Below the pieces are notes generated by a model. It searched no databases and was not told the DNA's origin. It worked only from the letters and a program-made list of their open reading frames with translations. DNA of 64,000 nt, from NCBI GenBank assembly GCA_017305665.1, contig JAFKKH010000019.1, positions 238,628-302,627 of the forward strand, in the 5' to 3' direction. Position 1 is the stretch's first letter. Every line of letters begins with the position of its first letter. Made by a program: the position numbers and the translations under genes. Origin of the DNA: Hyphomicrobiales bacterium (GTDB lineage Bacteria > Pseudomonadota > Alphaproteobacteria > Rhizobiales > Xanthobacteraceae). Of this stretch, positions 14,792-62,815 are shown piece after piece.

Positions 14792-14794
14792 GCA

Positions 14795-34322: not shown

Positions 34323-35807
34323 ATGTCCCAACCTGACGTCAGAGAGTTTCACTCCATCCCTGCGGTGGACAGAGGAGGTACGCCGGTCTCAATCGATCAA
34401 ACCGCTTTGGTTGTCGATCTCGATGGCACCCTCCTCCGCACCGACATGCTCTACGAGAGCTACTTCGCCTCGATACGTGATGGCGCTCAACATCATCGTT
34501 CGGTGCTGCGTGCGCTCTCTCGCGGCAAGGCTTCCTTTAAAGCGTATCTGGCCGACGTCGCGGCACTCGACTGCAATCTTCTTCCGATCAATGACAACGT
34601 TCTTGAGTTCGTGCGCGCTGCCAAGGCGAAGGGGCAGCCCGTCTTTCTCGCGACGGCAAGCAACCGTAAGCTGGCTGAACAGGTTGCTGCACGGCTTGAA
34701 ATCTTCGATGACGTATTTGCATCCGATGAAGCAACCAATCTCTCCGGCGACGCAAAAGCGAAGCATCTGATCGACACGTTCGGTGATCGCGGATTCGACT
34801 ACATAGGAAATTCCAGCGCGGACCTCCCGGTCTGGGCGCATGCACGACGTGCCTACATTGCTGGAAATCCAGCCCCGCTCATACGGCGAGCCAAGCAGCG
34901 CGGAATAGACGTGCGGCCCATGGCCGAAGCGGAATACAGCGCGCGCTCCTGGCTGAAGGCGCTCCGGGTGCATCAGTATGCGAAGAATGCTCTTATTTTT
35001 GTGCCGCTGTTGACGTCACACGCCTATTCGATATCGTCCTGCCTTGCTGCCTTTCAGGCATTCATATCCTTCTCGCTCTGCGCATCATCGGTTTATCTGC
35101 TCAATGACCTCATCGATTTGCGGGCCGACAGGCAGCATCCGACCAAACGATTGCGTCCTTTCGCGAACGGCGCGCTGCCACTTCAGCACGGCATCATCGC
35201 GATACCGCTCCTGCTCGCGATCTCCTATGCTTGCGCGCTGTTGACCTCGTTGCTGTTTACCGCCGTTCTGACCGCCTATCTCGTGCTAACCCTGGCTTAC
35301 TCGTTCACGCTCAAACGCCGCCTCATGGTCGATATCGTGGTGCTTTCGGCGCTCTATTCGATACGGGTCATCGCGGGATCGGCCGCGACTTATGTCGTGC
35401 CATCCGAATGGCTACTGGCCTTTTCGATGTTTGTCTTCGTCTGCCTCGCATTGGTCAAACGCTATGTGGAACTGGCACTGCGGATCGACAAGGAACTTCC
35501 AGATCCGTCAAACCGAAACTATCGCCTGATGGATTTGCCGATCATTGGCGCCCTGGCAGCCGCGAGCGGCTTCAATGCCGTCACGATCTTTTCGCTCTAT
35601 ATCTCTTCTCCCGCCGTGACAGATCTCTACCGACACCCCGGCATGCTTTGGCTAATCTGCCCAATCCTCATGTACTGGCTTAGCCGGATTGTGATTCTCG
35701 CCCATAGACGCGTGGTCGATGACGATCCCATCGTTTTCGCTTTGAGAGACCGCAACAGTCGCATTTGCGCAGCAGCCATGGTCGTTATCGTTTTGCTGGC
35801 GACGTGA
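34323..35807 (+). CDS. HAD-UbiA fusion, decaprenyl-phosphate phosphoribosyltransferase-like
   Basis: A 494-residue two-domain protein. Residues 25-195 are a HAD phosphatase: nucleophile motif VVDLDGTLLR (Asp32, Asp34), Thr/Ser motif LATASN, Lys in GDAKAKHL and a motif IV variant YIGNSSADLP (162-167). Residues 215-494 are a UbiA-type prenyltransferase with eight or nine helices and both Asp-rich sites: NDLIDLRADRQHPTKRLRP at 261-279 and YSFTLKRRLMVDIVVL. The second-site and R-H-P-x-K-R-x-R-P pattern is that of DPPR synthase, which makes decaprenyl-phosphoryl-5-phosphoribose; NoeC of Azorhizobium is a related precedent. The fused HAD may remove the 5-phosphate (inference). Confidence 0.87.
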   Translation: MSQPDVREFHSIPAVDRGGTPVSIDQTALVVDLDGTLLRTDMLYESYFASIRDGAQHHRSVLRALSRGKASFKAYLADVAALDCNLLPINDNVLEFVRAAKAKGQPVFLATASNRKLAEQVAARLEIFDDVFASDEATNLSGDAKAKHLIDTFGDRGFDYIGNSSADLPVWAHARRAYIAGNPAPLIRRAKQRGIDVRPMAEAEYSARSWLKALRVHQYAKNALIFVPLLTSHAYSISSCLAAFQAFISFSLCASSVYLLNDLIDLRADRQHPTKRLRPFANGALPLQHGIIAIPLLLAISYACALLTSLLFTAVLTAYLVLTLAYSFTLKRRLMVDIVVLSALYSIRVIAGSAATYVVPSEWLLAFSMFVFVCLALVKRYVELALRIDKELPDPSNRNYRLMDLPIIGALAAASGFNAVTIFSLYISSPAVTDLYRHPGMLWLICPILMYWLSRIVILAHRRVVDDDPIVFALRDRNSRICAAAMVVIVLLAT

Positions 35808-36815: not shown

Positions 36816-38159
36816 TTAAAGTCGATGGACTCGTTTGTCGCGAGACGTGGCTAACCACCATGCAATCAAGACAAACCAGAGCAATCCTCCAAAAAGAAAA
36901 TGAGACACGGCAAACGACTGGTAAAAGGCCGTTCTGCTCAAAGCTCCAAGCGAAGCTGGATGTTCGATCAGGGGCGTCGTCAGCGCGATCGCCAGCCATC
37001 CGAGACCGTACGTGAACGGAGACCTTGGCCATCGCCGCCAACGTCCGAGAAAAAAAGCGGCAGGCATCAACAGCCAACAATAATAGTGTACCCATGCCAA
37101 TGGGCTCGAAACGAGCGCGAGACAAAGAATGAGAAGATATTCCAGGTCGCGCCGTTCAGACTGCGTATCGTTGTCCTTGTCAGGAAATCGGACAGATCGG
37201 ACCCAGGCAGTCACCGCCGCAATGAACAGCAGGCCGATCAGAACCTTTTCAAGGATATTTTCGCCAGAGGTCGGCAACTGAGGAAGTGAATCGTAGTGAT
37301 CGATCCTGATCCCATCCCGCAAGCGGAAAATGAACGCCGATATTGACTGCACGCTGAACGTTGGCAGCCAGCCATGGCTGTACCGAACAATACAGGTTTC
37401 GAACCAGTTTAGGTTATCGGACCAGCCATAGACCATAAGCGAAAGGATCGCAGTTGCAACTCCAGCAACCAGGAACCCCACCAATCCCTTGAAGTCCCTC
37501 CGCAGAAGAAAGAACAGACCGAACAGGACGAGCGAAGGTTTCACGACGGCGCCCAGCCCCAACAGCACACCCGCGGCCGCTGAACGCTCGCGACGAACAA
37601 GAGCAAGTCCAGCCGCTAGAACAAACAGAATAAAATAGCTTAGATTGCCGAACTTGATCCCGTTCAAAAGCGATCCGTTGACAAGAAACAAAACGGCCAA
37701 CAGCCACCGCTCCCGCAACTCCAGCCCCGCCAGGCGAACCAGGAGGAACCATGCGGCGACAACCGACGCGAGCCCCAGGGCGGTGAACACCCATGCCGCC
37801 GGCTGCGGTGGCAGCAAAGCAAAAGGCGAGAACCAGTAGGCCACAATGGGAATATTAACAAATCCGGTCGCGCCTTTTCCGATCAGGTCTCGAAGCGCCG
37901 ACGGATCGTTATTCAGCGCGGCCTGTCCCGCAAGATAGTAGGCGTTCAGAAAGTCCCACAACCAATCTGTCGGGCTACTGCCCTCGAACAGAACCAATTC
38001 AAAAACAACCAATCCCCCGACGCAGAGGCCCGCCGCCCAGATGGGCAATTCAGATTTCATGAGGCTAGCCGGGAGGCGCTTCGCGCGGGCCATCCAAAAG
38101 ATGAGGCCCACAGCTAGGGCCGCGACGAGAAGATGGAGGGTGAAAACCAAGCTATGCAT
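36816..38159 (-). CDS. GT87-like (DUF2029) integral-membrane glycosyltransferase
   Basis: A 447-residue protein with 10-12 helices. The first periplasmic loop carries the acidic site typical of C-fold transferases (LWDFLNAYYLAGQAAL), and a later loop has ALVSSPLAWVHYYCWLLMPA, the DUF2029 hallmark. Such enzymes use polyprenyl-phosphate sugars, for example mannose or arabinose donors, on the periplasmic side. It lies 65 nt upstream of GtrA on the same strand. Confidence 0.87.
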   Translation of the reverse strand: MHSLVFTLHLLVAALAVGLIFWMARAKRLPASLMKSELPIWAAGLCVGGLVVFELVLFEGSSPTDWLWDFLNAYYLAGQAALNNDPSALRDLIGKGATGFVNIPIVAYWFSPFALLPPQPAAWVFTALGLASVVAAWFLLVRLAGLELRERWLLAVLFLVNGSLLNGIKFGNLSYFILFVLAAGLALVRRERSAAAGVLLGLGAVVKPSLVLFGLFFLLRRDFKGLVGFLVAGVATAILSLMVYGWSDNLNWFETCIVRYSHGWLPTFSVQSISAFIFRLRDGIRIDHYDSLPQLPTSGENILEKVLIGLLFIAAVTAWVRSVRFPDKDNDTQSERRDLEYLLILCLALVSSPLAWVHYYCWLLMPAAFFLGRWRRWPRSPFTYGLGWLAIALTTPLIEHPASLGALSRTAFYQSFAVSHFLFGGLLWFVLIAWWLATSRDKRVHRL

Positions 38160-38458: not shown

Positions 38459-39796
38459 TTATGTTGAAGAAGTTGCCACCGTACGGTGAGATAATGTGGA
38501 AGCATGAATCTCTCTGAGCAAAATGCCGACAAGAATCAGCACTCCGATAAAGACATGAGATTGGAGAAGATTCTGCGACGGAACGGTCGGATCGCCTGCC
38601 GGCACAAGCGGGTAGCCTGTTAACAAGAAGGATGCGGCAAGCAATGCTTTGTATATATGAGCCTGCGTACCTTTACGTCTGTCGAATATCGCCTTAAGCG
38701 CAACTACGTAAGCGGGCAACATGATGTTGTAGTGATGTACCCAGGCGATCGGCGAGGCCATCGTAAAGAGAAGCGAGGCTGTGCAGAACGCGAGAAGACT
38801 GGAGAACTGATCGGCTCCCCTGGCGCGGATGACAAATGGAATGAGGATCATCACAGCACTTGTCAGGATCGTCGCAAAATAAGCTCCTGCGATATATGGA
38901 GGAAACATCGACTGGGGAATCAGCCCGTGTGTATCTCGATCAAGGGATGGGCCGTGATACAACCAGCGGATCAGGATCCCATCGACGGATTGATTGAGGT
39001 GCTGATATTCGCCATGTCTAGACAGGAACGCAAGCACGTTCAGGTAATCGACGTGATTGCGAAAGCCGTACAGACCGATCGAAAGCATTACGGTCACGGC
39101 TAAAATCGCAGTGAATCCTGCGACAAAGCGCCATTTTTTTTGCCAGAGAGCCAGCAACCCCAGCAGGAAGAGTTGCGGCTTGACCAGGATGACAACTGCA
39201 ATCAAGCAACCCGATAGAACCTGCCTGCTGCGCAAGAGAGCCCAACACGCAAGTAAAAACAGCAGTCCCAACAAGACCTGCATTTGTCCTATCTGAAACG
39301 CGAGGTAGTTGGGATAGAATCGCAGCGTAACGAGGAACGCAATCGGCCCGATCGGAATGCTCAGGCCGCGATACTGAATATGTCCCAGCATTTCGGCGGA
39401 GAACACGGAAAATACCAGACCGGTCGCGATGAGCAGGCCCGCGTTGATATAGTTGAGTTGAAGGTTGGTTGTAATGCCCATCCGATTGAACAGATCGAGG
39501 ATGAGCAGCGCGTTAGGAGGATACTGAAATTTGACATGATCCAAAAAAAATAGCTTTTGATAGACAAGTTCCGCGGAAGAGCTGTGAAGAAACTTGAGGG
39601 CGTGATTCATTGGCAGCCATGAGTCCTCGCCGGAGTATCTTGCCTTTGAAGCCACATAGACGCTGAGCGCAAGACCGGCCGCCACACAAGCAAGCCATAT
39701 TATCCTCGAAATTCGGCTCGCCCATATCTCGCTTGGCCAAGCCGCTTCAGTTTCACCCGCGGGATCGGCTTGATATGTATGCGGACTGGACACCAC
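38459..39796 (-). CDS. GT87-like (DUF2029) integral-membrane glycosyltransferase
   Basis: A 445-residue polytopic protein with about 11 helices, homologous in layout to the protein at 36816. It has an early periplasmic acidic segment (RYSGEDSWLPMNHALKFL), KFQYPPNALLILDLFNRMG, then YLAFQIGQMQVLLGLLFLLA and the late FTMASPIAWVHHYNIMLPAY, matching the SPLAWVHYYCWLLMP signature of its neighbour. Two such enzymes side by side suggest two sequential sugar additions from lipid-linked donors. Confidence 0.87.
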   Translation of the reverse strand: MVSSPHTYQADPAGETEAAWPSEIWASRISRIIWLACVAAGLALSVYVASKARYSGEDSWLPMNHALKFLHSSSAELVYQKLFFLDHVKFQYPPNALLILDLFNRMGITTNLQLNYINAGLLIATGLVFSVFSAEMLGHIQYRGLSIPIGPIAFLVTLRFYPNYLAFQIGQMQVLLGLLFLLACWALLRSRQVLSGCLIAVVILVKPQLFLLGLLALWQKKWRFVAGFTAILAVTVMLSIGLYGFRNHVDYLNVLAFLSRHGEYQHLNQSVDGILIRWLYHGPSLDRDTHGLIPQSMFPPYIAGAYFATILTSAVMILIPFVIRARGADQFSSLLAFCTASLLFTMASPIAWVHHYNIMLPAYVVALKAIFDRRKGTQAHIYKALLAASFLLTGYPLVPAGDPTVPSQNLLQSHVFIGVLILVGILLREIHASTLSHRTVATSST

Positions 39797-42084: not shown

Positions 42085-42395
42085 CTGTATCCGTCGAAGC
42101 TGTAAATGTTCAGAACCAGGGTTGAAGAACGATGTGGACGCCAACGAATGACCGGAGAGCGCTCTGGCGTTAGTAACCATGAAAAGCCTAACTGCCGCAC
42201 TCGGTGCGTACCACTTTTCACAATACTTGCTGGTATTTGAAAAAATTCATATTCTAACAATGCGAGCTGAACTTCGGGCAATCCATGAGCGGATTAGACC
42301 ATTTCTGACTAGCGATATTCCGATTGTATGTCCAACCGCTATTAAGGTGTTCGTTAATGTTGCACGAGTTGCGGCTTACCAAGATAAACCCTAAT

Positions 42396-42725
42396 ATGAC
42401 CGCGGCTGTCGTCGAATGCGTTTATGCAGCGACCGGATCGATGCTCAAGATGGGCGACAAGCTGTGTGATCTCAGTGTGGATTTAAGTAGCGGCTTTTCT
42501 CAATACTGTCCGCCGATTTCCTATTTTCGTGTGGTCTCGCGTGAGAAGGTTTGGTTTCGGAAGATCCTCGTTGCGCCTGGCCAAAGCTGCAACGTCGGGG
42601 ATCTGATGGCGATTTTCAGCACAGAGCCGGATGAACTCGTGGACGGCGCTGCTGCTCGGCCACTGCGCATCACCACAGCGGGCATCGCTCATCATTCCGG
42701 TATGTGGTCGGCGAGCGGCACATGA
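42396..42725 (+). CDS. Lipoyl/biotinyl-like domain lacking the modifiable lysine
   Basis: A 109-residue protein from the ATG at 42396; 42357 is an alternative. It follows the barrel-sandwich pattern: VVECVYAATGSMLKMGDKL for the first half and FRKILVAPGQSCNVGDLMAI for the second. That second half matches the neighbouring lipoyl protein (LRKILSEAGKWQGIG) in the same register. Where lipoyl domains have the E-T/S-D-K-A hairpin it reads SVDLSSGFSQ, with no Lys, so it cannot carry lipoate or biotin there. Its stop overlaps the start of the SGNH-type gene at 42722 (ATGA), indicating translational coupling. Confidence 0.65.
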   Translation: MTAAVVECVYAATGSMLKMGDKLCDLSVDLSSGFSQYCPPISYFRVVSREKVWFRKILVAPGQSCNVGDLMAIFSTEPDELVDGAAARPLRITTAGIAHHSGMWSASGT

Positions 42726-44062
42726 CCGCTCTCGCCCTGACATGCGGCTCGCTCGCGGCAGACGGTTTCGTCATTCGCCGCTCGGGAATGCATTGGCTGC
42801 GCGGCGACGGCTATGTGTGCCGCCCGAACGAAGTGGTCGGCTACTGCAACATCAGTCTCGACCAGGTGTCAGGACAACGCTCGGGAAATTTCCCGCTGGC
42901 CGATGAAATGGAACTTCACGTGGCTTTTGCTCCACCGGTCGCTGGGTGCCTTCGGATCGCAGACGGACGTTCGCCGGGCGGCTACCTCAATACCTTGGGC
43001 CTTCACGTGTGGAACTCAGATGATGTGTTAGCGCATCTTGAGAAGCCTTCGGAAGGCGACCAGTCGGCGCAACCCGCCTCGGTCGAGATGCGGCTTCTCA
43101 TGATTGCCGGCCGCCGGATGAGCGCATTGGCCGATACGAACATCGGCATCCTACCCGGTTGGCACAGCCGGAGCCGAGCCTGGTGGTGCGATCGATCAGG
43201 CAACGAGCTTTCGACGCTGCTGTGCATGGGTGTTTGCGACGCGGCCGGCGTGGTCCGGGGCAACGAGACGCCGTTTGTGGAAGCCTTTGAAGCCACTCCC
43301 TCGGCAGCGCAGCTAGTCTATGTTCCCGATCATCCCATAGTCCCCTGCGCCCCGATCTTGCTGGAGCAACTGATGCGCTCGCCGGCGCAAAACGAAGCGA
43401 TCGCAGCGGACCTGAGCCGCGGATTGACCAACGGTCGGGTCGCACCCGACAGCAACGACTGGATGTTTGCGGGAGCGTTGCTTGCATCATTGCAGAATTC
43501 GCCGATGCGCGACAGATACGACGTCTTGACGCCGACCGGCTTGCAGCACCTAGGTCCGGCCAACACTATCCTGATGTCGTTGAATTCCGAAGTTCGTTCG
43601 ATCCTGAGACACAAGAAGCTCGGCTACGCCGCGCAAATGCTCCGGCATCGCCAAACGGCAGCCGGGCCTGCCGTCCGGTCGTGGCTCGCCTCGGAATTCG
43701 AGCCTATCAGGCGGAGTATCGACGACATAAAACGAGACTATCGACAACTCATCGACGCCGTCGCGGCCCAAACCGGCGCGCGAATTTTGATCCTGAACCG
43801 GATGTCGACATCCGGCTTCGAGGATATCACGAGCTACGTCTCGTTCGACGCCCCGATGAGCGACACCCTCGAAAATATCGCGGCAAAGGAAATGAACCTG
43901 ATGCTGCACGACCTGGCCCTCGAGTGCGATGTTTCAATTGTCGACGTCGATGCCATCGCAGCCGAACTGGGCGGCTCACAGAATTTGCCCGATGGAATCC
44001 ACCATAGCGCTGCGATGCAGGCAATGGTGAGATCAGAAGTCGTTCATATCCTGAATAGCTGA
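42722..44062 (+). CDS. Large SGNH-like protein with N-terminal beta-rich domain
   Basis: A 446-residue cytosolic protein from the ATG at 42722. The C-terminal 100 residues are SGNH-hydrolase-like: strand ARILILNRMS, SIVDVDAIAA at 405-414 and the catalytic-looking D-x-x-H block LPDGIHHS (Asp424, His427). The N-terminal 100 residues contain VCRPNEVVGYCNISLD and APPVAGCLRI, reminiscent of another barrel-sandwich domain (weak). No GDSL-type Ser block is obvious. The same C-terminal core (MN-x6-L, SIVDVD, D-x-x-H) recurs in the proteins at 46337 and 48255. It is convergent with the lipoyl-carrier gene (12-nt gap). Confidence 0.7.
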   Translation: MTALALTCGSLAADGFVIRRSGMHWLRGDGYVCRPNEVVGYCNISLDQVSGQRSGNFPLADEMELHVAFAPPVAGCLRIADGRSPGGYLNTLGLHVWNSDDVLAHLEKPSEGDQSAQPASVEMRLLMIAGRRMSALADTNIGILPGWHSRSRAWWCDRSGNELSTLLCMGVCDAAGVVRGNETPFVEAFEATPSAAQLVYVPDHPIVPCAPILLEQLMRSPAQNEAIAADLSRGLTNGRVAPDSNDWMFAGALLASLQNSPMRDRYDVLTPTGLQHLGPANTILMSLNSEVRSILRHKKLGYAAQMLRHRQTAAGPAVRSWLASEFEPIRRSIDDIKRDYRQLIDAVAAQTGARILILNRMSTSGFEDITSYVSFDAPMSDTLENIAAKEMNLMLHDLALECDVSIVDVDAIAAELGGSQNLPDGIHHSAAMQAMVRSEVVHILNS

Positions 44063-44074
44063 CGTTGTCCCGGG

Positions 44075-44377
44075 TCAGGTGATCTCGAAATCGACCGGGA
44101 GGTCTTTCAGCGCGTCAGTACCGTCGGGCAATGCCTCGTTGTCGTCATCGCTCAACAGCGCGAGCGGCAACCCGATGCCCTGCCATTTGCCAGCCTCGGA
44201 AAGAATTTTCCGTAGAACTCCGGGCTGGCCCGCACGGACCTCGACGATGGCCTTGTGGGTTTCGAGCTCGACCACGAGGTCGCCAGCGTTAAATTGATGT
44301 CCCACAACGCCATGCCACTCGAGAACGCGAATCTCCTCGACATCTGCGACTGCAGGGACAGAGATCTGATAAATCAT
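44075..44377 (-). CDS. Stand-alone lipoyl carrier protein
   Basis: A 100-residue single lipoyl domain. The ATG at 44377 follows a ribosome site (ggagag, about 6 nt). The hairpin VVELETHKAIVEVRAG holds the modifiable Lys (T-H-K-A in place of T-D-K-A), with VLRKILSEAG as the second-half counterpart. There is no peripheral-subunit-binding segment and no acyltransferase domain, unlike a normal E2, so it is a free carrier. It comes 48 nt after the E1 beta gene in an operon with E1 alpha and E1 beta, which would load it with an acyl group. Confidence 0.85.
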   Translation of the reverse strand: MIYQISVPAVADVEEIRVLEWHGVVGHQFNAGDLVVELETHKAIVEVRAGQPGVLRKILSEAGKWQGIGLPLALLSDDDNEALPDGTDALKDLPVDFEIT

Positions 44378-44425
44378 TTCAAGTCTCTCCAATTGGCCGG
44401 CCGGACCCAGCCATACGGGACCACG

Positions 44426-45415
44426 TCACCGTTTCAGCAATTTCCTCGCCGCTTGAACAACGCGTTGTGCGTCGGGCAAGCACGCGGGCTCAAGTACACG
44501 ATTCGACGACACCGGCGCTGGCAACGCACCAACACGAGCGGCTGATATCGGAGCGAGAATCTCCTGAACGCGGGCGATTACTTCAATCCCGACCCCGCAA
44601 GTCACCTGCCCTTCCTCAAGGGTCAGAAGCGCGTTGGTCCGGCGGACCGAACCAGCAATGGTGTCGATATCAAGGGGCGCAAGGCTGCGCAAGTCGATGA
44701 CCTCGGCGGAAACTCCTTCGGACTGGAGAAGATCCGCCGCCTCCATCGCGACCCGCGTCATGAACGAATGCGTGGAAATCGTCAGGTCCGTTCCGGAGCG
44801 ACAAACCTTGGCGAGGCCGAACGGGACGATCTCTTCTGCGAGCGGGACCTCTCCGGCAACCGGAAACAGGCGCTTGTGGTCGACAAAGACCACCGGCCCT
44901 TCTTCGCGCAGAGCGGCCTTCAGCATCCCGTAAGCGTCGGCCGCGGTCGAGGGCGCTACGACCTTCAGTCCCGGTACACTCATGAGCCAGGCTTCGATGC
45001 ATTGGGAATGGGCAACGCCCTGCCCCTTGGCGCCAGCCGTCGTCTTGACCACGAGGGGGGCCGTCAACTGACCACCTGTCTTATAGCGAAGCTTCGCCCC
45101 GTAATTGATCAGCGGGTCGAAGCCCAGCATCATGAAATCCATATAGGTGATACTGACGAGCGGTCTTAAGCCGGCAGCAGCCGCTCCCACGCCGACGCCG
45201 ACCATCGCGGCCTCCGCGACCGGCATGTCGCGGACCCGACCAGCGCCGAACTCCTCAAACAGGCCATCGAATTCACGGTAGGATCCGCCGAAAGCGCCGA
45301 CGTCCTGCCCCAAAATCACGATGCGATCATTTCCGCGCATTTCCTCGCGCACAGCGCGCATGATCGCTTCGCGGAAGAACATCCGCTCTGTCGCCATTTG
45401 ATTTTCACCAGACAT
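44426..45415 (-). CDS. 2-oxoacid dehydrogenase E1 component, beta subunit
   Basis: A 329-residue transketolase-type subunit that with E1 alpha decarboxylates a 2-oxo acid and passes the acyl group to lipoate. Family landmarks: LGQDVGAFGGSYREFDGL, RDMPVAEAAMVGVGVGAAAA (with the catalytic-region Glu), YMDFMMLGFDPLINYGAKLR and THSFMTRVAMEAADLL. It ends normally. The start overlaps the E1 alpha stop by 11 nt; Met at 45397 is an alternative. It resembles acetoin/pyruvate E1 beta, but the substrate cannot be read from sequence. Confidence 0.92.
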   Translation of the reverse strand: MSGENQMATERMFFREAIMRAVREEMRGNDRIVILGQDVGAFGGSYREFDGLFEEFGAGRVRDMPVAEAAMVGVGVGAAAAGLRPLVSITYMDFMMLGFDPLINYGAKLRYKTGGQLTAPLVVKTTAGAKGQGVAHSQCIEAWLMSVPGLKVVAPSTAADAYGMLKAALREEGPVVFVDHKRLFPVAGEVPLAEEIVPFGLAKVCRSGTDLTISTHSFMTRVAMEAADLLQSEGVSAEVIDLRSLAPLDIDTIAGSVRRTNALLTLEEGQVTCGVGIEVIARVQEILAPISAARVGALPAPVSSNRVLEPACLPDAQRVVQAARKLLKR

Positions 45416-46340
45416 CGGTCAGCACTTCGGAAGCGTTGGGGTATTCGGAAGCATCGGCGAAAGCGAGCGCGCCCTCGACAGCCTCTGCGACGTCGCGGCT
45501 GAGTTCTTTCTCCATATCCGGATTCAGAATCCCCGCAGCCTTAAGGACGGCCGTGTAAAGCACAATCGGGCATTTCGCACGAATGGCGGTCAGTTCGGAT
45601 CGGCTGCGGGTTTCCCGTGCCGTCGTCGAATGACTCGAAAATCGATAAGAAATACATTCGAGAAAGACCGGTCCGTTGCCCGCCCGGGCATGATCTACTG
45701 CATCGCCCATGGCCTTCCTGACGATATCGACGTCCATCCCGTCCACCGTCTGCGAGGGGATACCGAAGGCCATCCCGATGTCCGACAGGTTTTTCGGGGC
45801 GAGTGCAGCGTTGCGTGGCGTGGAAACCGACAATTGATTGTTGTTGCACACGAACAGCAACGGAAGCCGCCACGTCGCTGCGATGTTCAAGGTTTCATGA
45901 AGACCACCTGCGCCGAAGGCGCCGTCGCCAAACAGAATCGCAACGATACCTTCGCTCCCCAACATCTGCTTGGCCAATGCCACGCCACCGGCGATGCTGA
46001 TATTGCCGCCGACGACCGCATGGGCACCGAAGAATCCTGCGGCCGGATCGGCCAGATGACCTCGCCCGCCCTTGCCGCGATTGGTGCCGGAAGCTTTGCC
46101 CAGCAGTTCCGCCATGACACGCGCAGGCTCGACGCCCCGCGCCAGCGAGGGCCCGATCGATCTGCCGCCCGTGAGCAATTGATCCTCTTCGTTGAGTATG
46201 GAGCACAGCCCGACAGCAACGGCTTCCTCTCCCGAGGACAGCAACTGGAAGCCGTGGTCCTTCCGCCTGGAGAGAGCTTCCTCGAACGAACGGATGAGCA
46301 TCATCGTCCGGAGCATCGCTATTCGATCGTGCGCTGTCAT
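45405..46340 (-). CDS. 2-oxoacid dehydrogenase E1 component, alpha subunit
   Basis: A 311-residue TPP-binding subunit. The ThDP motif is FGDGAFGAGGLHETL followed by LPLLFVCNNNQLSVST (GDG-x(26)-NN), and the active-site entry is GGRGHLADPAAGFFGAHAVV. The phosphorylation-loop region (SSHSTTARETRSRSEL) resembles E1 alpha of acetoin and pyruvate complexes. The start ATG at 46340 overlaps the stop of the preceding gene as ATGA, so it belongs to one transcript 48255-46337-45405-44426-44075. No E2 or E3 gene is adjacent. Confidence 0.92.
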   Translation of the reverse strand: MTAHDRIAMLRTMMLIRSFEEALSRRKDHGFQLLSSGEEAVAVGLCSILNEEDQLLTGGRSIGPSLARGVEPARVMAELLGKASGTNRGKGGRGHLADPAAGFFGAHAVVGGNISIAGGVALAKQMLGSEGIVAILFGDGAFGAGGLHETLNIAATWRLPLLFVCNNNQLSVSTPRNAALAPKNLSDIGMAFGIPSQTVDGMDVDIVRKAMGDAVDHARAGNGPVFLECISYRFSSHSTTARETRSRSELTAIRAKCPIVLYTAVLKAAGILNPDMEKELSRDVAEAVEGALAFADASEYPNASEVLTDVW

Positions 46341-47242
46341 GATTTGTTGCCGGAGTGCATACGTCCACGAGCTGCCTGACGAAGCGCTACGGTGACCATT
46401 GCGACACTGGGCCAAAACCCCCGTCGAGCAATGGACTTCCAGAACTTCCTGAAGGCATCTCCGATTCCAAGTTGTCGCGTGAGCAGAAGCTGAACGAGCC
46501 AGCCTGCATAATCGTCTTTGTCGGTGCCAACCACCGTGGCCACCACCTGCCTACGGCGACCCGACCCCAGCTTGAGATAGTTCGGCAGCACCATATCCGG
46601 AGCGACGGCACCGGCCGATTTCAGGTCGATCTTCCGATCAGCCACGATCTTCCTTGCGGCATCCTGAACCTCGAACGGAACGAAGGCGTCCAGGCCAGCC
46701 GAGATCACCGCGAGCGCGGTAAACTTCGCTACAGCTTCTGCAGCACGCGAACCACCCAACCGATAATCAGTGTCGAGCCTCCTCGCGCCTATGTCCGCAA
46801 GACTGCGGTCGAGATCGATCACGCACGCTCCGGTCTCACGCGAAATTTCGGCGGCGAGAAGATTGAGCCGGCGAACGCGAATGCGCCGTGCTGTATCGGC
46901 CTTGTCGATCAATGGCACATGCCGAAAAACAGTGCAAATAAACGCCACCTGATCGCCGTCCGCCGTCAGGCCATGAAAGGTCTTGCGCAGCCGCGCCGCC
47001 ACGTCGGCCCAGGGTTGCTCAAAATTTGCAACTTCCGGCAACAGCGACGCGATCACGACGCAAGGCTCATCAGATCGGACTGCGAGCGCATCGAGCGACG
47101 GCTCGAACTGACAACTAACAAAGACCGGCGCGTTGCCCGCAGCACTGAGGCTGTTCGTCAAAAGCTCGGCAGCACGGCTAACCGAAAGCTGCTCGCTGCT
47201 ACCGACCGCTGCACGCACCGAGATATTGACCGGCTCATTCAT
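46337..47242 (-). CDS. SGNH-like protein with degenerate active site
   Basis: A 301-residue protein with no signal peptide. Its core VAFICTVFRHVP, RVRRLNLLAAEISRETGACV, then VIDLDRSLADIGARRLDTDY (140-160) follows the same template as the SGNH protein at 48255 (CRRFNLGLADLSEQLG, SIVDVDTLIARAGADRLKID). The D-x-x-H catalytic block is replaced by DTDYRLGG, so hydrolysis by the usual mechanism is unlikely. The last 100 residues are basic and may form a separate module. It overlaps the GT2 gene (4 nt) and E1 alpha (ATGA). Confidence 0.65.
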   Translation of the reverse strand: MNEPVNISVRAAVGSSEQLSVSRAAELLTNSLSAAGNAPVFVSCQFEPSLDALAVRSDEPCVVIASLLPEVANFEQPWADVAARLRKTFHGLTADGDQVAFICTVFRHVPLIDKADTARRIRVRRLNLLAAEISRETGACVIDLDRSLADIGARRLDTDYRLGGSRAAEAVAKFTALAVISAGLDAFVPFEVQDAARKIVADRKIDLKSAGAVAPDMVLPNYLKLGSGRRRQVVATVVGTDKDDYAGWLVQLLLTRQLGIGDAFRKFWKSIARRGFWPSVAMVTVALRQAARGRMHSGNKS

Positions 47243-48270
47243 TTGGCCGCGACCTCCAATGCGGTCGCATTGAGATGGGCTCGCCTGACGTTTTCAATTC
47301 CCGTCACATCCTTGTAGCGTTCCGCGGCAGCTTCCAGATCGGGCAACGAGGCTATCCGCGCGCTGGGGGGAAACGGCAACGGATCGGACAGACTTGCCCA
47401 AAAGACTGACATTAGCGGAACGGCGGGAATCGGATGCGCCTGATAGAATGTTTGCTCCCAAACGGGATCGCCTACCGGATCGCGCCAACCCGTCCGATGC
47501 GTGAGGTGATAGGTGAACGCCCCATCGACCGGGACCATCCGTGCTCCAGCCTGACATAGGCGCAGCGCCAACTCCCGATGTTCGTTGATCGTGATGGCGT
47601 CGTTGAATCCGCCGCTGGCCAGAAACGCCTCGCGGCTCACCGACTGGTTGGAGCCGGAAGCTGCCGCCCACAACACGCTGCAGTCGGGATGCGCGCGAAG
47701 CGCATCCATTTCCAGTTCAAATAACCGCCGGGGACCGGCACCCGGATATATTCCGGGCTGCGAACGGTTATGGATCGATTCAAAGCGTTCGGAAACATCC
47801 TGTAGCGTCACGCGCATACGCGTCATTTCAGATGCCGAAATGGCTGCAACGCGCTCTTCCTCGCCCGGTCGCGGCGATCCCGTCTCGGGATCGGCAAAGA
47901 ACCGGGTGCAGCGCAATTGATGGGTTTCTCCTCGGCCCACCAGACCGGACTTTGATCTGTGAACGTCCATGTGCCGGACGACGAACTGCGGTCCGGCAAG
48001 CGTGTCGCCGTCTAGGAAAATCAGGATGTCGCCTGATGCAAGCGCCGCGCCGGCGTTTGCCGCACCGGACCGGCCAAGCGGCACCTTGTGCTCCAGCGGG
48101 ACAAGCGCAAGGCGCCCGGTTGCTTCGGCGATCACGTCGTGCGTGTGGTCAGTGGACCCGTCGTTGACGACAACCACCTCGGCCGGCTCGGTCTGCTCGG
48201 CAAGCGATCGCAAGGTCAACCGAAGGCGATCCGCTTCGTCCTTGGACCGGATGATTACACTGGCGCGCAT
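47239..48270 (-). CDS. Glycosyltransferase family 2
   Basis: A 343-residue GT-A enzyme: N-terminal SVIIRSKDEADRLRLTLRSL, the nucleotide site VVVVNDGSTDHTHDV, the D-x-D motif FLDGDTLAG at about 90, and AASGSNQSVSREAFLASGGF with the acceptor-side INEHRELALRL. It resembles the bacterial chondroitin-synthase-like GT2 group. It overlaps the upstream SGNH gene by 16 nt and the downstream gene by 4 nt, so it is embedded in the E1/lipoyl operon. The acyl or carrier system and this transferase are thus probably one pathway. Confidence 0.9.
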   Translation of the reverse strand: MRASVIIRSKDEADRLRLTLRSLAEQTEPAEVVVVNDGSTDHTHDVIAEATGRLALVPLEHKVPLGRSGAANAGAALASGDILIFLDGDTLAGPQFVVRHMDVHRSKSGLVGRGETHQLRCTRFFADPETGSPRPGEEERVAAISASEMTRMRVTLQDVSERFESIHNRSQPGIYPGAGPRRLFELEMDALRAHPDCSVLWAAASGSNQSVSREAFLASGGFNDAITINEHRELALRLCQAGARMVPVDGAFTYHLTHRTGWRDPVGDPVWEQTFYQAHPIPAVPLMSVFWASLSDPLPFPPSARIASLPDLEAAAERYKDVTGIENVRRAHLNATALEVAAK

Positions 48271-49061
48271 GTCGGCTCCTGCATTGTGAGCAACCCAAGG
48301 TCGGCTAAAACGCGAACGACTTCCTCCGCGACGAGGCGGTAGCCTTCCGGCGTGAGGTGCATCGCGTCTATCTTCAGGCGATCTGCGCCAGCACGGGCGA
48401 TCAAGGTATCAACGTCGACGATGGAGATGCCGAGTTGCTCTGATAGATCCGCGAGCCCCAAATTGAAGCGACGGCATCGGGTCGAATACGTCTCTCCCAG
48501 TCCCTGCAGGCAATGAACCGTCTCGCCGGGAATAATCGGGGACACATTGTAAATTAGGATCGGGACATCCGCGTTCGCGCGGACTCTCTCGATGATCTTT
48601 GCCAGATTTTCCATCGACGCGGCGACATCGAGCAGATCCTGCTGCGTAAAGTCCTGCTTCAGCCATTCGCGATCCTCCGGCGACCACTTCTCCTTGTCAG
48701 CCGGATAAAACAGGAAACCACTTGATTTGTGTTGCACCAGCGGGGTTGCGGTTTCTCCCAGGATCGACAGGATGACCGCATCCGCCTTGCGGTCGAACAG
48801 TGCAGTGCTGAACTGGCTCACGGCCGGATATGAGCCGAGCGACAATTGCCGCTGAGCGATCTCGTCCGGCACGGTCTCGGTAGCTGCCAGAATCGCGTCG
48901 GACCGCGTCCACGTTTCGTGTCGCAACGAAACGATGGCGTCCGACCGTCCACGCACGACGTCATTGATGCCGTTCCAAAGGATCTCTCCACCGATCCGGC
49001 AGGAGTGCAAGGAATCGTGGACGTCCACATTTCCTTTGGCAAACAGATTGAGACGACCCAC
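48255..49061 (-). CDS. SGNH-like hydrolase/acyltransferase candidate
   Basis: A 268-residue protein starting at a GTG at 49061. Block I reads KGNVDVHDSLHSCRIGG (Ser17 in place of GDS-type Ser), a Gly/Asn region follows (LWNGIND), and block V is IDAMHLTPEGYRLVAEE with Asp232 and His235. The central YNVSPIIPGETVH and SIVDVDTLIA are shared with its relatives. A complete Ser-Asp-His set is plausible, making this the most likely active member of the three. There is no signal peptide, so it acts in the cytosol. First gene of the operon running down to 44075. Confidence 0.8.
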   Translation of the reverse strand: MGRLNLFAKGNVDVHDSLHSCRIGGEILWNGINDVVRGRSDAIVSLRHETWTRSDAILAATETVPDEIAQRQLSLGSYPAVSQFSTALFDRKADAVILSILGETATPLVQHKSSGFLFYPADKEKWSPEDREWLKQDFTQQDLLDVAASMENLAKIIERVRANADVPILIYNVSPIIPGETVHCLQGLGETYSTRCRRFNLGLADLSEQLGISIVDVDTLIARAGADRLKIDAMHLTPEGYRLVAEEVVRVLADLGLLTMQEPTCAPV

Positions 49062-49382
49062 TATATATCACCCAGGATGCAATATCCGGCGGCCAATGAA
49101 TTCCGCGGAAACTCGATAAAATTCTTCTTCTCATTGGCCATGAGCCCATGGAATTCTCAAAACAAAACTGCCATTCGACGCAAATTCAATCAAGATAATC
49201 GCGACAATTAGCGTTACCGGCAAAGACTTTGAAATTTCCGGGGCCCCTCTGGCAGGTTCGGATTTCCAGCCCGCCATTTAGCCTGTATAAACCTTGTTCA
49301 CACAAATTTGAGCGCCTATTCTCGCCGTCTACGTGCTTTCCATGCAGATCACACGCATTCCACGATCTGCTGAACAAGGTTA
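49062..49382. promoter_or_regulatory. Divergent control region with two sets of inverted repeats
   Basis: Separates the minus-strand E1/lipoyl operon from the transglutaminase-like gene. Inverted repeat ggccaatga (49091-49099) / tcattggcc (49131-49139) lies 30-78 nt before the GTG start at 49061. The two-stem structure at 49290-49381 abuts the plus-strand start. No clean -35/-10 pair was obvious to me. Confidence 0.6.
49290..49381 (+). promoter_or_regulatory. 5' leader structure that could hide the ribosome site of the transglutaminase-like gene
   Basis: aaccttgttca (49290-49300) pairs perfectly with tgaacaaggtt (49371-49381), whose 3' end lies one base before the ATG at 49383 and contains the only purine-rich ribosome-site candidate (caagg). 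A second perfect stem, gcagatc (49344-49350) / gatctgc (49364-49370), stacks directly against the right arm. In RNA this would occlude translation initiation; as DNA it could be an operator pair. Confidence 0.6.
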
Positions 49383-50651
49383 ATGCGCTTGAAGAATCCA
49401 CCTCCAGGTATCCGCGCTGAGGATCGCTACCGCACAATCGGGGAGCGCCAGATCATCGATATGCTTCTAGTCGCGGCTTTCGTGTTCGAAATCGAGGCTG
49501 GACATCGCGAACGTGCGCTCGCGCGCGTCTTGGCTGCCCTGGAGGATTGGATCAGGCTCGGCCTTGGCTATCAGGTATCCAATCAAGGAGAACGGCTATT
49601 CGACCCGGTCGAGGTAATTAACCGTATGAAGTGGGCCGGCTACCGCGGTCTCGATGATTTCTGGGCCGACCACTTCGTGGCCACCACTCGGGCCTTTGTA
49701 CGAGAGTGGGATAAGGTGAGCCGCGAACCGACTTCCGTCAACCGGGTTCCCGAGCGTTTCAGTGTCGGTTTCCGCCGCAGGTTCCATCTCGACGGGATAA
49801 CCGCAGGTCAGAAATTGCGGCTTCGGCTCCCTCTCCCGCTGTCACAGTCATCGGAGGACATCGTCATTGAGCCGATGGTCGCGCCAGAACTGTCGGCGCG
49901 CATCGTTCAATCGGAGGGACGCCTCGATTTTCAATTCGCTGCGCCGGCCGAACCCGCGGTCGAGATCGCCGCCAAGATGACGTTTACCACGAGCGGATAC
50001 TCCTGTGATGTCCTCGCCGAAGATGGCGTCGACATCTATCTTCGCGGCAGCGACGGGTTGGTGCGTATCACGCCGCGCATCCAGGCACTAGCTAAAAACC
50101 TCGCCGGGATCGATTGCAACCCGCTCACGGCGGCGACCACGCTTTTCAACCATATCATCGACGATCTCATGTGCGGCCTGGTGCACTACGATCAGGTCGA
50201 CATGGAGGCTCCCGGCGATTGGGTTCTCGAGAACGGCTGGTACGATTGTCAGCTCGGCTCGGCATTGTTCGTGTCGCTGTGCCGCGCCCATGGCATTCCC
50301 GCGCGTATCCTGAGCGGCCACATGCTGTATCGGCTCGCTCCCGGCTTTCACTATTGGGCCGAAATCTGGATCGACGGAAAAGGCTGGACGCCATTCGACT
50401 TTCTGACCTGGGATCTGTCGAAGGCAGGCCACGACGCGTCCTGGCGTAACTTTTTCGCAGGGGCGATTGACTACAGAATGACCACCCAGTGCTTTCCGCT
50501 GATGTTCACCGGGCCGATGAGCATTCGATTCCCCACCGCCTGGCATCTGGTCAACGCGCCCTCTCGCGGCGGAATGGATGTCAGGTTTGCGGGATTGGAT
50601 GGCAGACTGATTTATTGCGATAGCGTTTCGGCTCGATCAATCGCACGCTAG
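49383..50651 (+). CDS. Cytosolic transglutaminase-fold protein
   Basis: A 422-residue protein. Residues 270-345 carry a papain-like transglutaminase core: WYDCQLGSALFVSLCRAHGI with Cys289, GFHYWAEIWIDGKGWTPFD with His323 and Asp339, the complete Cys-His-Asp triad. The N-terminal 260 residues are alpha- then beta-rich and unassigned. There is no signal peptide or membrane helix, unusual for a polymer-active member. Transglutaminase-fold proteins include proteases, amidases and acyl-transfer enzymes; next to a lipoyl carrier operon, acyl transfer is attractive but unproven. The 3' end faces the PQQ dehydrogenase gene (12-nt gap). Confidence 0.8.
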   Translation: MRLKNPPPGIRAEDRYRTIGERQIIDMLLVAAFVFEIEAGHRERALARVLAALEDWIRLGLGYQVSNQGERLFDPVEVINRMKWAGYRGLDDFWADHFVATTRAFVREWDKVSREPTSVNRVPERFSVGFRRRFHLDGITAGQKLRLRLPLPLSQSSEDIVIEPMVAPELSARIVQSEGRLDFQFAAPAEPAVEIAAKMTFTTSGYSCDVLAEDGVDIYLRGSDGLVRITPRIQALAKNLAGIDCNPLTAATTLFNHIIDDLMCGLVHYDQVDMEAPGDWVLENGWYDCQLGSALFVSLCRAHGIPARILSGHMLYRLAPGFHYWAEIWIDGKGWTPFDFLTWDLSKAGHDASWRNFFAGAIDYRMTTQCFPLMFTGPMSIRFPTAWHLVNAPSRGGMDVRFAGLDGRLIYCDSVSARSIAR

Positions 50652-50663: not shown

Positions 50664-53087
50664 TCACTTCTTGGGAAGAGCATAGGCGATAATGGAGTCG
50701 CCTGCTTTCGTTCCGAGACTTCCATGCCCTCCCGCAACGACAACGACAAATTGTCTCTGACTTTCGTTAGACCAATACGTCATCGGAGTAGCCTGACCGC
50801 CCGCAGGGAGGCGGCTCTCCCATAGTTGCTTCCCTGTTGTGACATCGTAGGCCCGAACGAAGTTATCCAAGGTGCCGCTGAGGAAAGCCAGTCCACCCCT
50901 GGTGATGATCGGGCCCCCAATTCCGGGTACGCCAAGCTTCAACGGAAGCGGAACGCGAGACAAATCCCTGACGGTGCCGTTGACGTGCCGGTAAACGATT
51001 TTGCCGGCCTGCAGACTAGCCCCAGCGACAAAACCCCACGGCGGAGCCTGGCAGGGAATATGCAGTAGCGAGACGAATGGAGCTATTTTCACGGCATACC
51101 GCGAACCAAAATTCTCGTTGAAAGGCGGATCGGCTTCACCTGTTACGAGGCGGCTGCGATCGTCCCGTCGAGGAACTAAGGTCGACACGAAAGCCAGATT
51201 GACGGGCATCCCGAAGGCGATTTTCCGTTCAGGATCAATCGCCATGCCTCCCCAATTGAAAACACCAAAGCTCCCCGGGTAAGTGATCGAGCCCCGCTCG
51301 GATGGCGGCGTATATCGTCCCTGGTATCTGAGTTTGCGGAATTTGATACGACACGCGAGTTGGTCGAAGGGCGATATCCCCCACATCGCACTTTCGGTCA
51401 AAACCGGCGGATTGAACGACAATGCGGAAACCGGCTGCGTAGGTGCGGTTGTATCACCCCCTGCACCACCCTGTGGGGCAGCCGTTTCAACAACCGGTAG
51501 CACCGGCTTGCCGGTGCGTCGGTCGAGCACAAAAATCTCTCCCGGCTTGGTCACGATAACCACCGAGGGAATGGTTTCTCCGTTGATGGTCAGGTCGAAC
51601 AGGCTTGGCTGGGCCGGGATGTCCATGTCCCATAGATCATGATGCGTGCCCTGAAAGGTCCACACCACGGCCCCCGTCGCCGCGTCCAGGGCGACGACAG
51701 AGGACGAATATTTTTCGACATTTGCGTCTCGATTGCCGCCGAATTCATCCGGCGGCTGATTTCCCATCGGTACGAATATCAGCCCGAGTTGGGGATCGTA
51801 GCTCGATATGCTCCAACTGTTCGGAGAATTCTCGGAATAGGTTGCGTCACGCGCAATCGGCTTCGTTTCGTCTGGCTTGCGGCTATCCCAGTTCCAAACC
51901 AAATCTCCGGTCTGGATATCGAAGGCGCGGATCACGCCGGACGTCTCATGTAGCGATACATTGTCGTTCACTGCGCCGCCTACAATGACCAGATTTTTGG
52001 CTACGAGCGGCGGCGATGTCGAATAATATGAACCCGGCGTGACATTGGGCATGTTCCGCCACAAGTCGACCGAACCTGCCACACCAAAGCCGACGCAAAC
52101 CGCGCCGGTGTCAGCGTTCAATGCAATCAGCCGGCCATCGACCGTCGGCAAGAATATCTGCCTGTTGCAGTCGGTTGCAGTGGAGGACGGACGGTCGACA
52201 TACGCGACGCCGCGACATGTCAGATGCTGAGTACTTTGAAACGGTGGCTGTCGAATCTTGGGATCGTAGCGCCACTTTTCTTTTCCTGTTTCCGCATCAA
52301 GCGCGAAAACGAGATCGTGAGGCGTGCAGAGGTAGAGGGTGTCATCGACTTTTAGCGGCGTCACTTCGTAAGTTGTTTCGATAGGGTCGCCCTTCCTTCG
52401 CAAATCACCCGTATGAAAGACCCACGCCGGTTTGAGTTGATTCACATTCTGAGGCGTAATTTGAATCAGGCTCGAATAGCGCGTGCCTGCGTCGGTACCG
52501 CCGTAGGCTCTCCAGTCCTTACCGGCAGCAAAAACGGCTCCGACGTTTTCGGCGTCCACCTTCGGGAGTTTACCGGCACGATCGTGCGGATGCTGAATGG
52601 CCGCAGCGATCGCGACAATTCCGCTCGCACCGAGCGCGCAGGCGAGTGCGAGACAGCCCGATCTCAGAAATGCGCGGCCCGTGACGAATCGAACTTGGCG
52701 AGCGACCCCTGGCAGGATGAGAATCAACGCGAGCGCGGCAATCAGATCCAGCCTCGGAACCAGTTGCCAAAAATCGAGACCAACCTCGGAGACGGACCAG
52801 ATCAGGGTAAACAGGATCAGCAACGCGACGAGCCAATAAGTCCAGGCGCTCCGGCGGAATATCAGCACGGCGACGACGAGCAATGCCAATCCCGCAAGCC
52901 AATAAAAATATGCGCCACCAAGCAAAGCCAGCCAAACACCGCCAGTAAACAGAACCACCCCCGAGAGCCCCGTCAGGCTCGACAGGAGAATTCGCACGAC
53001 CGGAGAACCGGCGACCAATCTAGCCTCAGCTTTAAAAGTGCTGACCTTTCCTTCGGACGACGGGCCTTGCTTTTCCATCAATTTCAT
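50664..53087 (-). CDS. Membrane-bound PQQ-dependent dehydrogenase, glucose/quinate/shikimate family
   Basis: An 807-residue protein with five N-terminal helices (about 30-180), typical of the ubiquinone-linked membrane type, then an eight-bladed periplasmic PQQ propeller. Landmarks: DWRAYGGTDAGTRYSSLIQI with NQLKPAWVFHTGDL, FQSTQHLTCRGVAYVD, SPNSWSISSYDPQLGLIFVP and the ending MTYWSNESQRQFVVVVAGGH. It oxidises a sugar or cyclitol in the periplasm and feeds the quinone pool. Glucose versus quinate cannot be decided by reading. No pqq genes are in the window. Confidence 0.93.
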   Translation of the reverse strand: MKLMEKQGPSSEGKVSTFKAEARLVAGSPVVRILLSSLTGLSGVVLFTGGVWLALLGGAYFYWLAGLALLVVAVLIFRRSAWTYWLVALLILFTLIWSVSEVGLDFWQLVPRLDLIAALALILILPGVARQVRFVTGRAFLRSGCLALACALGASGIVAIAAAIQHPHDRAGKLPKVDAENVGAVFAAGKDWRAYGGTDAGTRYSSLIQITPQNVNQLKPAWVFHTGDLRRKGDPIETTYEVTPLKVDDTLYLCTPHDLVFALDAETGKEKWRYDPKIRQPPFQSTQHLTCRGVAYVDRPSSTATDCNRQIFLPTVDGRLIALNADTGAVCVGFGVAGSVDLWRNMPNVTPGSYYSTSPPLVAKNLVIVGGAVNDNVSLHETSGVIRAFDIQTGDLVWNWDSRKPDETKPIARDATYSENSPNSWSISSYDPQLGLIFVPMGNQPPDEFGGNRDANVEKYSSSVVALDAATGAVVWTFQGTHHDLWDMDIPAQPSLFDLTINGETIPSVVIVTKPGEIFVLDRRTGKPVLPVVETAAPQGGAGGDTTAPTQPVSALSFNPPVLTESAMWGISPFDQLACRIKFRKLRYQGRYTPPSERGSITYPGSFGVFNWGGMAIDPERKIAFGMPVNLAFVSTLVPRRDDRSRLVTGEADPPFNENFGSRYAVKIAPFVSLLHIPCQAPPWGFVAGASLQAGKIVYRHVNGTVRDLSRVPLPLKLGVPGIGGPIITRGGLAFLSGTLDNFVRAYDVTTGKQLWESRLPAGGQATPMTYWSNESQRQFVVVVAGGHGSLGTKAGDSIIAYALPKK

Positions 53088-62336: not shown

Positions 62337-62539
62337 CCGAACCGGTCGGCCCGCGTCCTCGCGACGACACCGTGTATTCGAACGCGTCATATGAATTCCT
62401 GCGGCTATCGCTTTCGGAAATGGGACAAGCATCATTCCATCCTTTCCCTGTCGGTCGGCTTTACGTTAATTTGCGCTTGTGATTGCCTGCGGTGTTAGGC
62501 GCGACTATTGGTCGTTAGACATCAAGCGGCAACGTGCGA

Positions 62540-62725: not shown

Positions 62726-62815
62726 CGGAATTGCGTTAGGTCTCGATCCTGAGCAGCCTGCTTACTGAGTGACATCTGGCGCAAGGGATTTTGTCTCGTG
62801 AGCAACGTTCTCGTC

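Follow-up and report, generated by a model that had tools for sequence, protein, structure and literature searches.

A recurrent nine-gene cassette that joins a 2-oxo acid dehydrogenase-type E1 to a free-standing lipoyl carrier, with a possible role in acyl transfer to a glycosylated acceptor

We analyzed a stretch of 64,000 nucleotides from a Hyphomicrobiales bacterium (assembly GCA_017305665.1, contig JAFKKH010000019.1, positions 238,628 to 302,627), hereafter the window. Open reading frame (ORF) calls and Pfam profile matches place a cassette of nine genes at 42357-50651. It encodes both subunits of a 2-oxo acid dehydrogenase-type E1 (E1-alpha and E1-beta), a free-standing lipoyl carrier (LIP), a lipoyl-fold protein without the modifiable Lys (lipless), three relatives of the SGNH family (SGNH1, SGNH2 and SGNH3), a GT2 glycosyltransferase and a transglutaminase-fold protein (TGL) (Table 1). 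The same inventory had been given in a preliminary description of this DNA, and all of these genes are present by ORF and profile evidence. From 49061 downward, the minus-strand genes run in the order SGNH3, GT2, SGNH2, E1-alpha, E1-beta and LIP. The overlaps are 16 nt for GT2/SGNH3, 4 nt for SGNH2/GT2, 4 nt for E1-alpha/SGNH2 and 11 nt for E1-beta/E1-alpha; the third of these lies at the ATGA at 46337/46340, where the preliminary description had placed it. On the plus strand, lipless and SGNH1 overlap by 22 nt and are convergent to the minus-strand run, and TGL lies 321 bp past SGNH3.

Table 1. Genes of the cassette and related features (window positions unless a locus from the genome scan is named)
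Feature	Position	Strand	Remarks
Lipless, Lys-less lipoyl-fold protein	42357..42725	+	122 aa; no Pfam match; assigned by profile comparison and model
SGNH1	42704..44062	+	452 aa; start GTG 42704 or ATG 42722; PF13472 E=1.2e-4, below cut-off
LIP, free-standing lipoyl carrier	44075..44377	-	100 residues; PF00364 E=2.6e-10; Lys42 in ETHKA
E1-beta, 2-oxo acid dehydrogenase type	44426..45415	-	PF02779 E=1.3e-38; PF02780 E=4.4e-26
E1-alpha	45405..46340	-	PF00676 E=2.4e-63; thiamine diphosphate (ThDP) motif GDGA...NN
SGNH2, degenerate SGNH relative	46337..47242	-	PF13472 only E=0.1; without block-V His (TDYRL)
GT2 glycosyltransferase	47239..48270	-	PF00535 E=1.1e-18
SGNH3, SGNH relative	48255..49061	-	PF13472 E=1.6e-7, 32.5 bits vs cut-off 32.9
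TGL, transglutaminase-fold protein	49383..50651	+	PF01841 E=5.8e-16, above cut-off
GT87 membrane glycosyltransferases	36816-38159, 38459-39796	-	near cassette
GT87	L040 16823-18610	+	directly adjoins cassette in Gluconacetobacter diazotrophicus
NAD-dependent epimerase/dehydratase-family gene	L045 12689-13645	+	between SGNH2 and E1-alpha, Methylocapsa palsarum

We searched 84,980 species genomes with six short exact SGNH3 peptide patterns, an approach that recovers close relatives only. The 28 pattern matches gave 12 confirmed loci. Their hosts are Gluconacetobacter diazotrophicus PA1 5, Methylocapsa palsarum, two Acidocella metagenome-assembled genomes (MAGs), a Nevskia MAG, Aromatoleum, Rhizobium, Hyphomicrobiales, Rhizobiales, Sphingomonadales and proteobacterial MAGs, and one MAG labelled Candidatus Kuenenia. 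The contig filed under this last name (L048, CALQFM020000026.1) matches L052 with 100% identity over 3774 bp; because the genome of L052 belongs to the class of the window, L048 probably stems from that class as well and was mis-binned. Relatives of all nine window genes are found in 10 of the 12 loci (L039-L042, L044, L045 and L047-L050), with TGL of L047 interrupted by a contig end. The contigs of L043 (TGL, SGNH3, GT2) and L046 (SGNH3, GT2) end inside GT2. The ten full loci and the window make up the 11 cassettes in which conservation is counted below.

Gene order and overlaps are nearly constant across the full cassettes. The E1-alpha/E1-beta overlap is 11 nt in 10 of 11, the window included, and 14 nt in L044. 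The position of TGL varies: it stands beside SGNH3, between SGNH3 and lipless, or past lipless. The identities to the window proteins are 34-44% for SGNH2, 33-48% for TGL, 38-57% for lipless, 38-54% for SGNH1, 47-65% for SGNH3, 56-66% for GT2 (12 loci, two truncated), 57-64% for LIP, 59-69% for E1-alpha and 66-74% for E1-beta, compared to 40-44% for the best fetched E1-beta outside the cassette. The two Acidocella loci share 77% identity over 7.8 kb of DNA and the remaining loci are much less alike; in GC content, the 12 loci lie between 48 and 69%. The distance-matrix correlations among the nine families are 0.53-0.89, which, with no background control, lends weak support. The recurrence of the same nine genes elsewhere indicates that their co-location is not due to chance, and they almost certainly form one functional unit. 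The idea of a linked system, put forward in the preliminary description, thus survived the check for co-occurrence.

The unit is rare. E1-beta at E<=1e-90 was found in none of 396 other genomes of the order, and the SGNH3 profile (E<=1e-8) and the TGL profile (E<=1e-25) were each found in none of 397 other genomes of the phylum, apparently an identical set for both profiles. SGNH3 at E<=1e-20 was found in one of 384 other genomes of the class. LIP, searched for in 295 further genomes of the family, had no match above 37% identity among the matches listed, some of which are possibly E2 proteins. These samples of genomes overlap, and in the E1-beta and profile scans scoring was limited to a few top first-look candidates in each genome. 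In a plasmid search, SGNH3 matched one record at E<=1e-10 (a Planktothrix agardhii plasmid), LIP matched no record at 1e-8 and SGNH1 matched no record at 1e-3. TGL matched 42 plasmid records with a query coverage of at most 31% among the matches listed, and a lipoyl-like ORF of the Planktothrix plasmid matched only itself. A unit so rare and scattered would fit horizontal spread.

The ThDP-binding motif and the catalytic residues of E1 are present, as judged from profile matches, alignments and conservation. Glu68 and His136 of E1-beta, taken as E59-beta and H128-beta of the Geobacillus stearothermophilus E1p, and His237 of E1-alpha, taken as H271-alpha, are found in 11/11 cassettes. We infer these equivalences from alignments with human E1, from which the Geobacillus chains were absent. 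According to the available text of PMC2663715, the H128Q-beta mutant of E1p has nearly full activity with dichlorophenolindophenol (DCPIP) and less than 5% complex activity, and H271-alpha is a proposed helper in acyl transfer to lipoate. The retention of these lipoate-linked His residues in every cassette argues that the cassette E1 still acylates lipoate. It is likely that E1 acylates LIP.

The substrate of this E1 is probably not pyruvate. The YR.HG segment of E1-alpha reads GR(S/A)IG in 11/11 cassettes, with Gly59 and Ile62 in place of Tyr and His. The ordinary E1-alpha proteins in the fetched loci have YRDHG in 20 of 20 cases; a lipoyl query had been used to retrieve these loci, so that the proteins are probably mostly of the pyruvate dehydrogenase (PDH) type. 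Y102-alpha of E1p contacts the cofactor (PMC2663715, available text). If the replaced Tyr corresponds to Y102-alpha, the pocket of E1-alpha would be opened, and the substrate would then probably be larger than or unlike pyruvate.

The altered segment would also suit the bulkier substrate of a carboligase. E1-alpha/beta would then add a ThDP-bound unit of two or more carbons onto a keto-sugar, GT2 would move the resulting branched-chain sugar, and LIP would be an accessory with an oxidizing or regulating role. AviB1/AviB2 and Pau11/Pau12 are, like the cassette pair, E1-alpha/beta proteins encoded with glycosyltransferases, and the role proposed for them is to attach a two-carbon branch to a sugar; no lipoyl carrier is named for avi or pau in the available text (PMC4425429). 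The epimerase-family gene between SGNH2 and E1-alpha in M. palsarum (L045) speaks for the carboligase as well. However, a free LIP with its Lys42 kept adjoins E1-beta in 11/11 cassettes. Moreover, the epimerase gene was not seen at that place in the other nine full loci, whose SGNH3-to-LIP run contains no extra gene except for TGL and the lipless/SGNH1 pair in L050. We thus consider the carboligase unlikely.

The loss of Tyr and His from E1-alpha may also be compatible with a ketose phosphate donor, as in the Nap and Qnc two-component transketolases, in which case E1 would load a glycolyl group on LIP and this group would end on a sugar. A precedent with a ThDP protein, transketolase-type domains and a lipoyl domain is found in Qnc and Scl (PMC6335953, PMC7570522, available texts). 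By score, however, the cassette E1 is nearest to the E1 families of PDH and other 2-oxo acid dehydrogenases and ranks transketolase models far lower, and the nine genes include no acyl carrier protein (ACP). A ketose donor is therefore quite unlikely. By the same two texts, the glycolyl-lipoyl systems NapB/NapD, QncN/QncL and SclQ2-4 have in common with the cassette a ThDP E1-like pair and a lipoyl domain, but they belong to non-ribosomal peptide clusters, with an acyltransferase domain of the E2 type and an ACP as acceptor. The cassette, unlike them, contains three SGNH proteins, TGL, GT2 and a Lys-less lipoyl fold. None of the nine window proteins is an ACP or an E2 core, and the loci showed no E2 core either; for ACPs, the search was confined to the nine genes.

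The second lipoyl-fold protein, lipless, matches the LIP family with an hhalign probability of 97.1. Its structural model has a mean predicted local distance difference test score (pLDDT) of 85.9, and the best Foldseek matches of this model are lipoyl and biotinyl domains, none of them below E=0.001. The hairpin Lys that could be modified is absent. In its place is an 11-residue loop (residues 43-53) of lower model confidence, which contains Cys51 in a CPP motif in 11/11 cassettes. On one reading, lipless is a second carrier that uses a cysteine. On another reading, it is a docking protein for LIP or E1.

LIP and lipless could also be a redox or sulfur-handling pair like LbpA in Hdr-type sulfur oxidation, with E1 merely keeping LIP reduced. 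Single lipoyl-domain proteins with non-acyl functions do exist outside the classical complexes: LbpA is one and presumably shares its E3, as LIP would (PMC6067878, available text). A sulfate permease gene flanks the cassette in L045. In the available text of the same paper, however, LbpA is GcvH-like and occurs together with Hdr-like genes and a ligase of its own. The NCBIfam models matched by LIP are of the E2 or PDH lipoyl type, with no GcvH model among those listed, and none of the nine proteins matches hdr-like or lipoate-ligase families. We regard a redox pair as very unlikely.

A lipoyl-bound acyl group is usually passed by an E2 core to coenzyme A (CoA). We searched the window and the 12 loci (173,317 bases) by tblastn at E<=1e-3 with E2 proteins (from L004 and L006) and an E3 protein (from L056), all housekeeping queries. 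No E2 core was detected with the two E2 queries, which come from the same genome: one matched only the lipoyl domain of LIP (3 of 13 sequences) and the other matched nothing. The E3 query was also without a match. These results bear out the preliminary description, which had seen neither an E2 core nor an E3, and an ordinary complex with displaced E2 and E3 was rejected because neither is found in the window or the loci. Compared to the 2-oxo acid dehydrogenase complexes (PDH, branched-chain 2-oxo acid dehydrogenase and acetoin dehydrogenase), the cassette is alike in its E1 ThDP motifs, the His residues for lipoate acylation and the lipoyl Lys. It differs in that no E2 core or E3 was detected, the lipoyl domain is free and the Tyr and His of E1-alpha are replaced.

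Elsewhere, the host genome encodes three lipoamide dehydrogenases above the curated cut-off, lipA and ordinary E2s. Lipoylation and re-oxidation of the carrier could thus come from outside the cassette. Once the acyl group has left, the carrier is in the dihydrolipoyl form and has to be re-oxidized before the next round. The view of the preliminary description that this step could be dispensed with does not hold: every turnover requires it, and a shared E3 would have to supply it. The ordinary E2s and E3s, together with CoA as the usual acceptor, could also be taken to mean that acyl-LIP docks with a housekeeping E2 core and that the cassette makes an unusual acyl-CoA for TGL or an SGNH protein. 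This is distinctly unlikely: the 100 aa of LIP make up a bare lipoyl domain and leave no room for an E2 subunit-binding domain, and a single foreign lipoyl domain would need to be accepted by E2 cores that differ among hosts from several orders.

Which enzyme would take the acyl group instead? TGL has the Cys289-His323-Asp339 triad of PF01841 in 11/11 cassettes. SGNH1 consists of a beta-rich N-terminal half and an SGNH-type domain (model mean pLDDT 77.5), and its C-terminal part is homologous to SGNH3 (hhalign 99.3). Below E=0.001, the SGNH1 model has a single Foldseek match, the putative hydrolase 4h08 (E=6.7e-4, root-mean-square deviation (rmsd) 7.7); further matches include thioesterase I and GDSL-family lipolytic proteins. 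Cys178, in a GxC(D/E) motif, and His433 are found in 11/11 cassettes. In the model, the helix that begins with Cys178 follows a strand taken as the first of the SGNH core, and His433 stands ahead of the last helix. Cys178 is thus a candidate nucleophile at the place of the SGNH Ser, with the position of block I set by eye and by model topology.

The block-I Ser of PF13472 is not found in SGNH3 either, which has KGN(L/V)D and so neither Ser nor Cys at this position in 11/11 cassettes. SGNH3 keeps His235 (11/11) and an invariant HETWTRSDA motif, and a comparison of its profile with the Protein Data Bank gave no credible relative by sequence. SGNH2 matches SGNH3 with an hhalign probability of 97.8 over about 100 columns, with its N-terminal half not aligned. 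The block-V catalytic His is conserved in SGNH1 and SGNH3 (11/11 each) and is found in no SGNH2, where T-D-x-x-(L/M) replaces D-x-x-H in all 11. SGNH3 without a nucleophile and SGNH2 without the catalytic His may be better viewed as binding proteins. The three SGNH proteins of the preliminary description therefore hold as a trio by homology but not as equivalent enzymes. Its proposal that the lipoyl carrier hands the acyl group to an SGNH or transglutaminase-fold enzyme keeps two candidates, TGL with a full triad and SGNH1 with a candidate Cys, and loses SGNH2 and SGNH3, which have no candidate nucleophile.

A distant relative on Planktothrix agardhii plasmid p3 (NZ_LR882947.1, L053) offers a comparison. 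An SGNH3 relative (28% identity, hhalign 99.8) lies there beside a lipoyl-like ORF (hhalign 89.6). In the region 11961-15270, the SGNH3 relative is fused to a methyltransferase, with ACP, short AMP-binding and FAD-oxidoreductase genes alongside; it has Asn at the position of His235. No E1, TGL or SGNH1 gene is found among the 19 annotated features of L053. This locus may be what is left of a related carrier system, and its gene company suggests that an SGNH3-type protein works with carrier-bound acyl groups.

In a 19-residue hydropathy scan, a simple measure that is not a signal-peptide predictor, the maxima of the nine window proteins are 0.92-1.67 vs. 2.37-2.61 in four membrane-type neighbors. 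SGNH2 homologues reach 1.86. Because no strongly hydrophobic stretch is found in the nine window proteins, the chemistry is probably cytosolic. A role as membrane-bound or secreted acyltransferases of the PatB/OafA type was rejected on the same values.

The wider region of the window is a polysaccharide locus with two GT87 genes, a flippase-type gene, a GT4-type glycosyltransferase, a Wzz/AAA protein and an initiating sugar transferase. In G. diazotrophicus (L040), glycosyltransferases, GT87 included, flank the cassette. We annotated 40 flanking proteins from ten loci (all but L046 and L047); many had no family match and some are probably spurious frames. Outside L040, the named flanking genes are for the most part unrelated and include sugar uptake and an iron-permease-like gene in L042, trehalose synthesis and a further GT2 in L044, a pabB-type gene and a photolyase in L039, a histidine kinase in L041, a short-chain dehydrogenase in L043, BrkB in L048 and an FMN oxidoreductase in L049. 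In 5 of the 12 loci (L039, L043, L045, L047 and, with a fragment of 128 aa, L042), TGL has an additional glycosyltransferase as its neighbor; all five belong to one sequence family, and both of the two examined with Pfam are GT2. A clear polysaccharide setting like that of the window was found only in L040 among the ten partly annotated loci. The preliminary description was thus right to place this cassette inside a polysaccharide locus, but this is not a general trait, and a glycosyltransferase is often near the cassette.

Some neighboring genes are recorded here for their own sake. A UbiA-prenyltransferase/HAD fusion is encoded at 34323-35807 (+) in the window and at 1-1440 (+) in L050, where it lies directly beside the cassette. 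Its product may carry out a polyprenyl-phosphate sugar step that is connected with what the cassette makes. Directly past TGL, at 50664-53087 (-), is a membrane-bound pyrroloquinoline quinone (PQQ)-dependent dehydrogenase of the glucose/quinate/shikimate family (TIGR03074, 1043.5 bits). An IS66-family transposase is found near the window end at 62515-63840 (-). Two other assignments of the cassette were also discarded. Anti-phage defence was ruled out since none of the nine proteins matches PADLOC models at E<=0.001. A phage origin was rejected since the PHROGs matches are limited to both E1 subunits (one E1-like family of unassigned function) and GT2 (two GtrB-type glycosyltransferase families), with none for the other six proteins.

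The explanation we favor is that the cassette is one cytosolic acyl-transfer system that leads from E1 through LIP and a cassette Cys enzyme to a glycosylated acceptor. E1-alpha/beta with ThDP would decarboxylate a non-pyruvate 2-oxo acid and reductively acylate the lipoate bound to Lys42 of LIP. There would be no dedicated E2 core step. A Cys enzyme, TGL (Cys289-His323-Asp339) and/or SGNH1 (Cys178-His433), would take the acyl group by thioester exchange, perhaps with the Cys51 loop of lipless as an intermediate stop, and would place it on an acceptor glycosylated by GT2. SGNH3 and SGNH2 would bind or shape this acceptor and not hydrolyze it, and a housekeeping E3 would re-oxidize dihydrolipoyl-LIP. 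What we observed is the conserved unit, its invariant residues, no detectable E2 or E3 linked to it, and E3 and lipA genes elsewhere in the genome; all of the transfer steps, the donor, the acceptor and the roles of lipless and the SGNH proteins are what we infer. We give this explanation as a whole a probability of about 0.4. Of its parts, a CoA-free transfer by a cassette enzyme has an even chance, and a glycosylated acceptor is a tentative assignment at somewhat less than that. The stricter form, in which the acyl group moves along a CoA-independent thioester chain from lipoyl-LIP to a Cys on the Lys-less carrier, then to a Cys-type SGNH or transglutaminase-fold enzyme and to the glycosylated acceptor, all within a nine-gene mobile unit, is rather doubtful. 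To our knowledge, it would be the first lipoyl pathway to do without an E2 core and to use a pair of lipoyl-fold carriers that differ in their chemistry.

Several points weigh against the favored explanation. All known E1s have a His at the 128-beta position (PMC2663715, available text), so that this His alone is no proof of lipoate use. The Planktothrix relative of lipless is without a Cys at the Cys51 position. The best SGNH match of the SGNH1 model is weak (TM score 0.28 by query length, rmsd 7.7), the His region of SGNH1 is of low confidence (residues 426-430 below 50), and Asp430 is absent in 2 of 11 cassettes. The roles of GT2 and TGL are derived from family names only. Finally, the Qnc/Scl precedent carries an E2-type acyltransferase domain in the available texts, whereas the cassette has none.

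The diversion of lipoyl-bound acyl groups from CoA is itself known in the Nap, Qnc and Scl systems (PMC6335953, PMC7570522, available texts). We found no description of the gene combination of the cassette in the open-licence full-text literature. The cassette may therefore represent a lipoyl-dependent acyl diversion of a known kind in a combination for which no description was found. Because the unit is compact and apparently soluble, and occurs as one locus in the complete genome of G. diazotrophicus PA1 5, it is directly testable. If the favored explanation is true, an E1 and a lipoyl carrier working with Cys enzymes and GT2 in place of E2 and E3 would be a new exit for 2-oxo acid chemistry. 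The Cys loop on a lipoyl fold would possibly be a new protein carrier, and the product would probably be a new acylated or branched glycoside.

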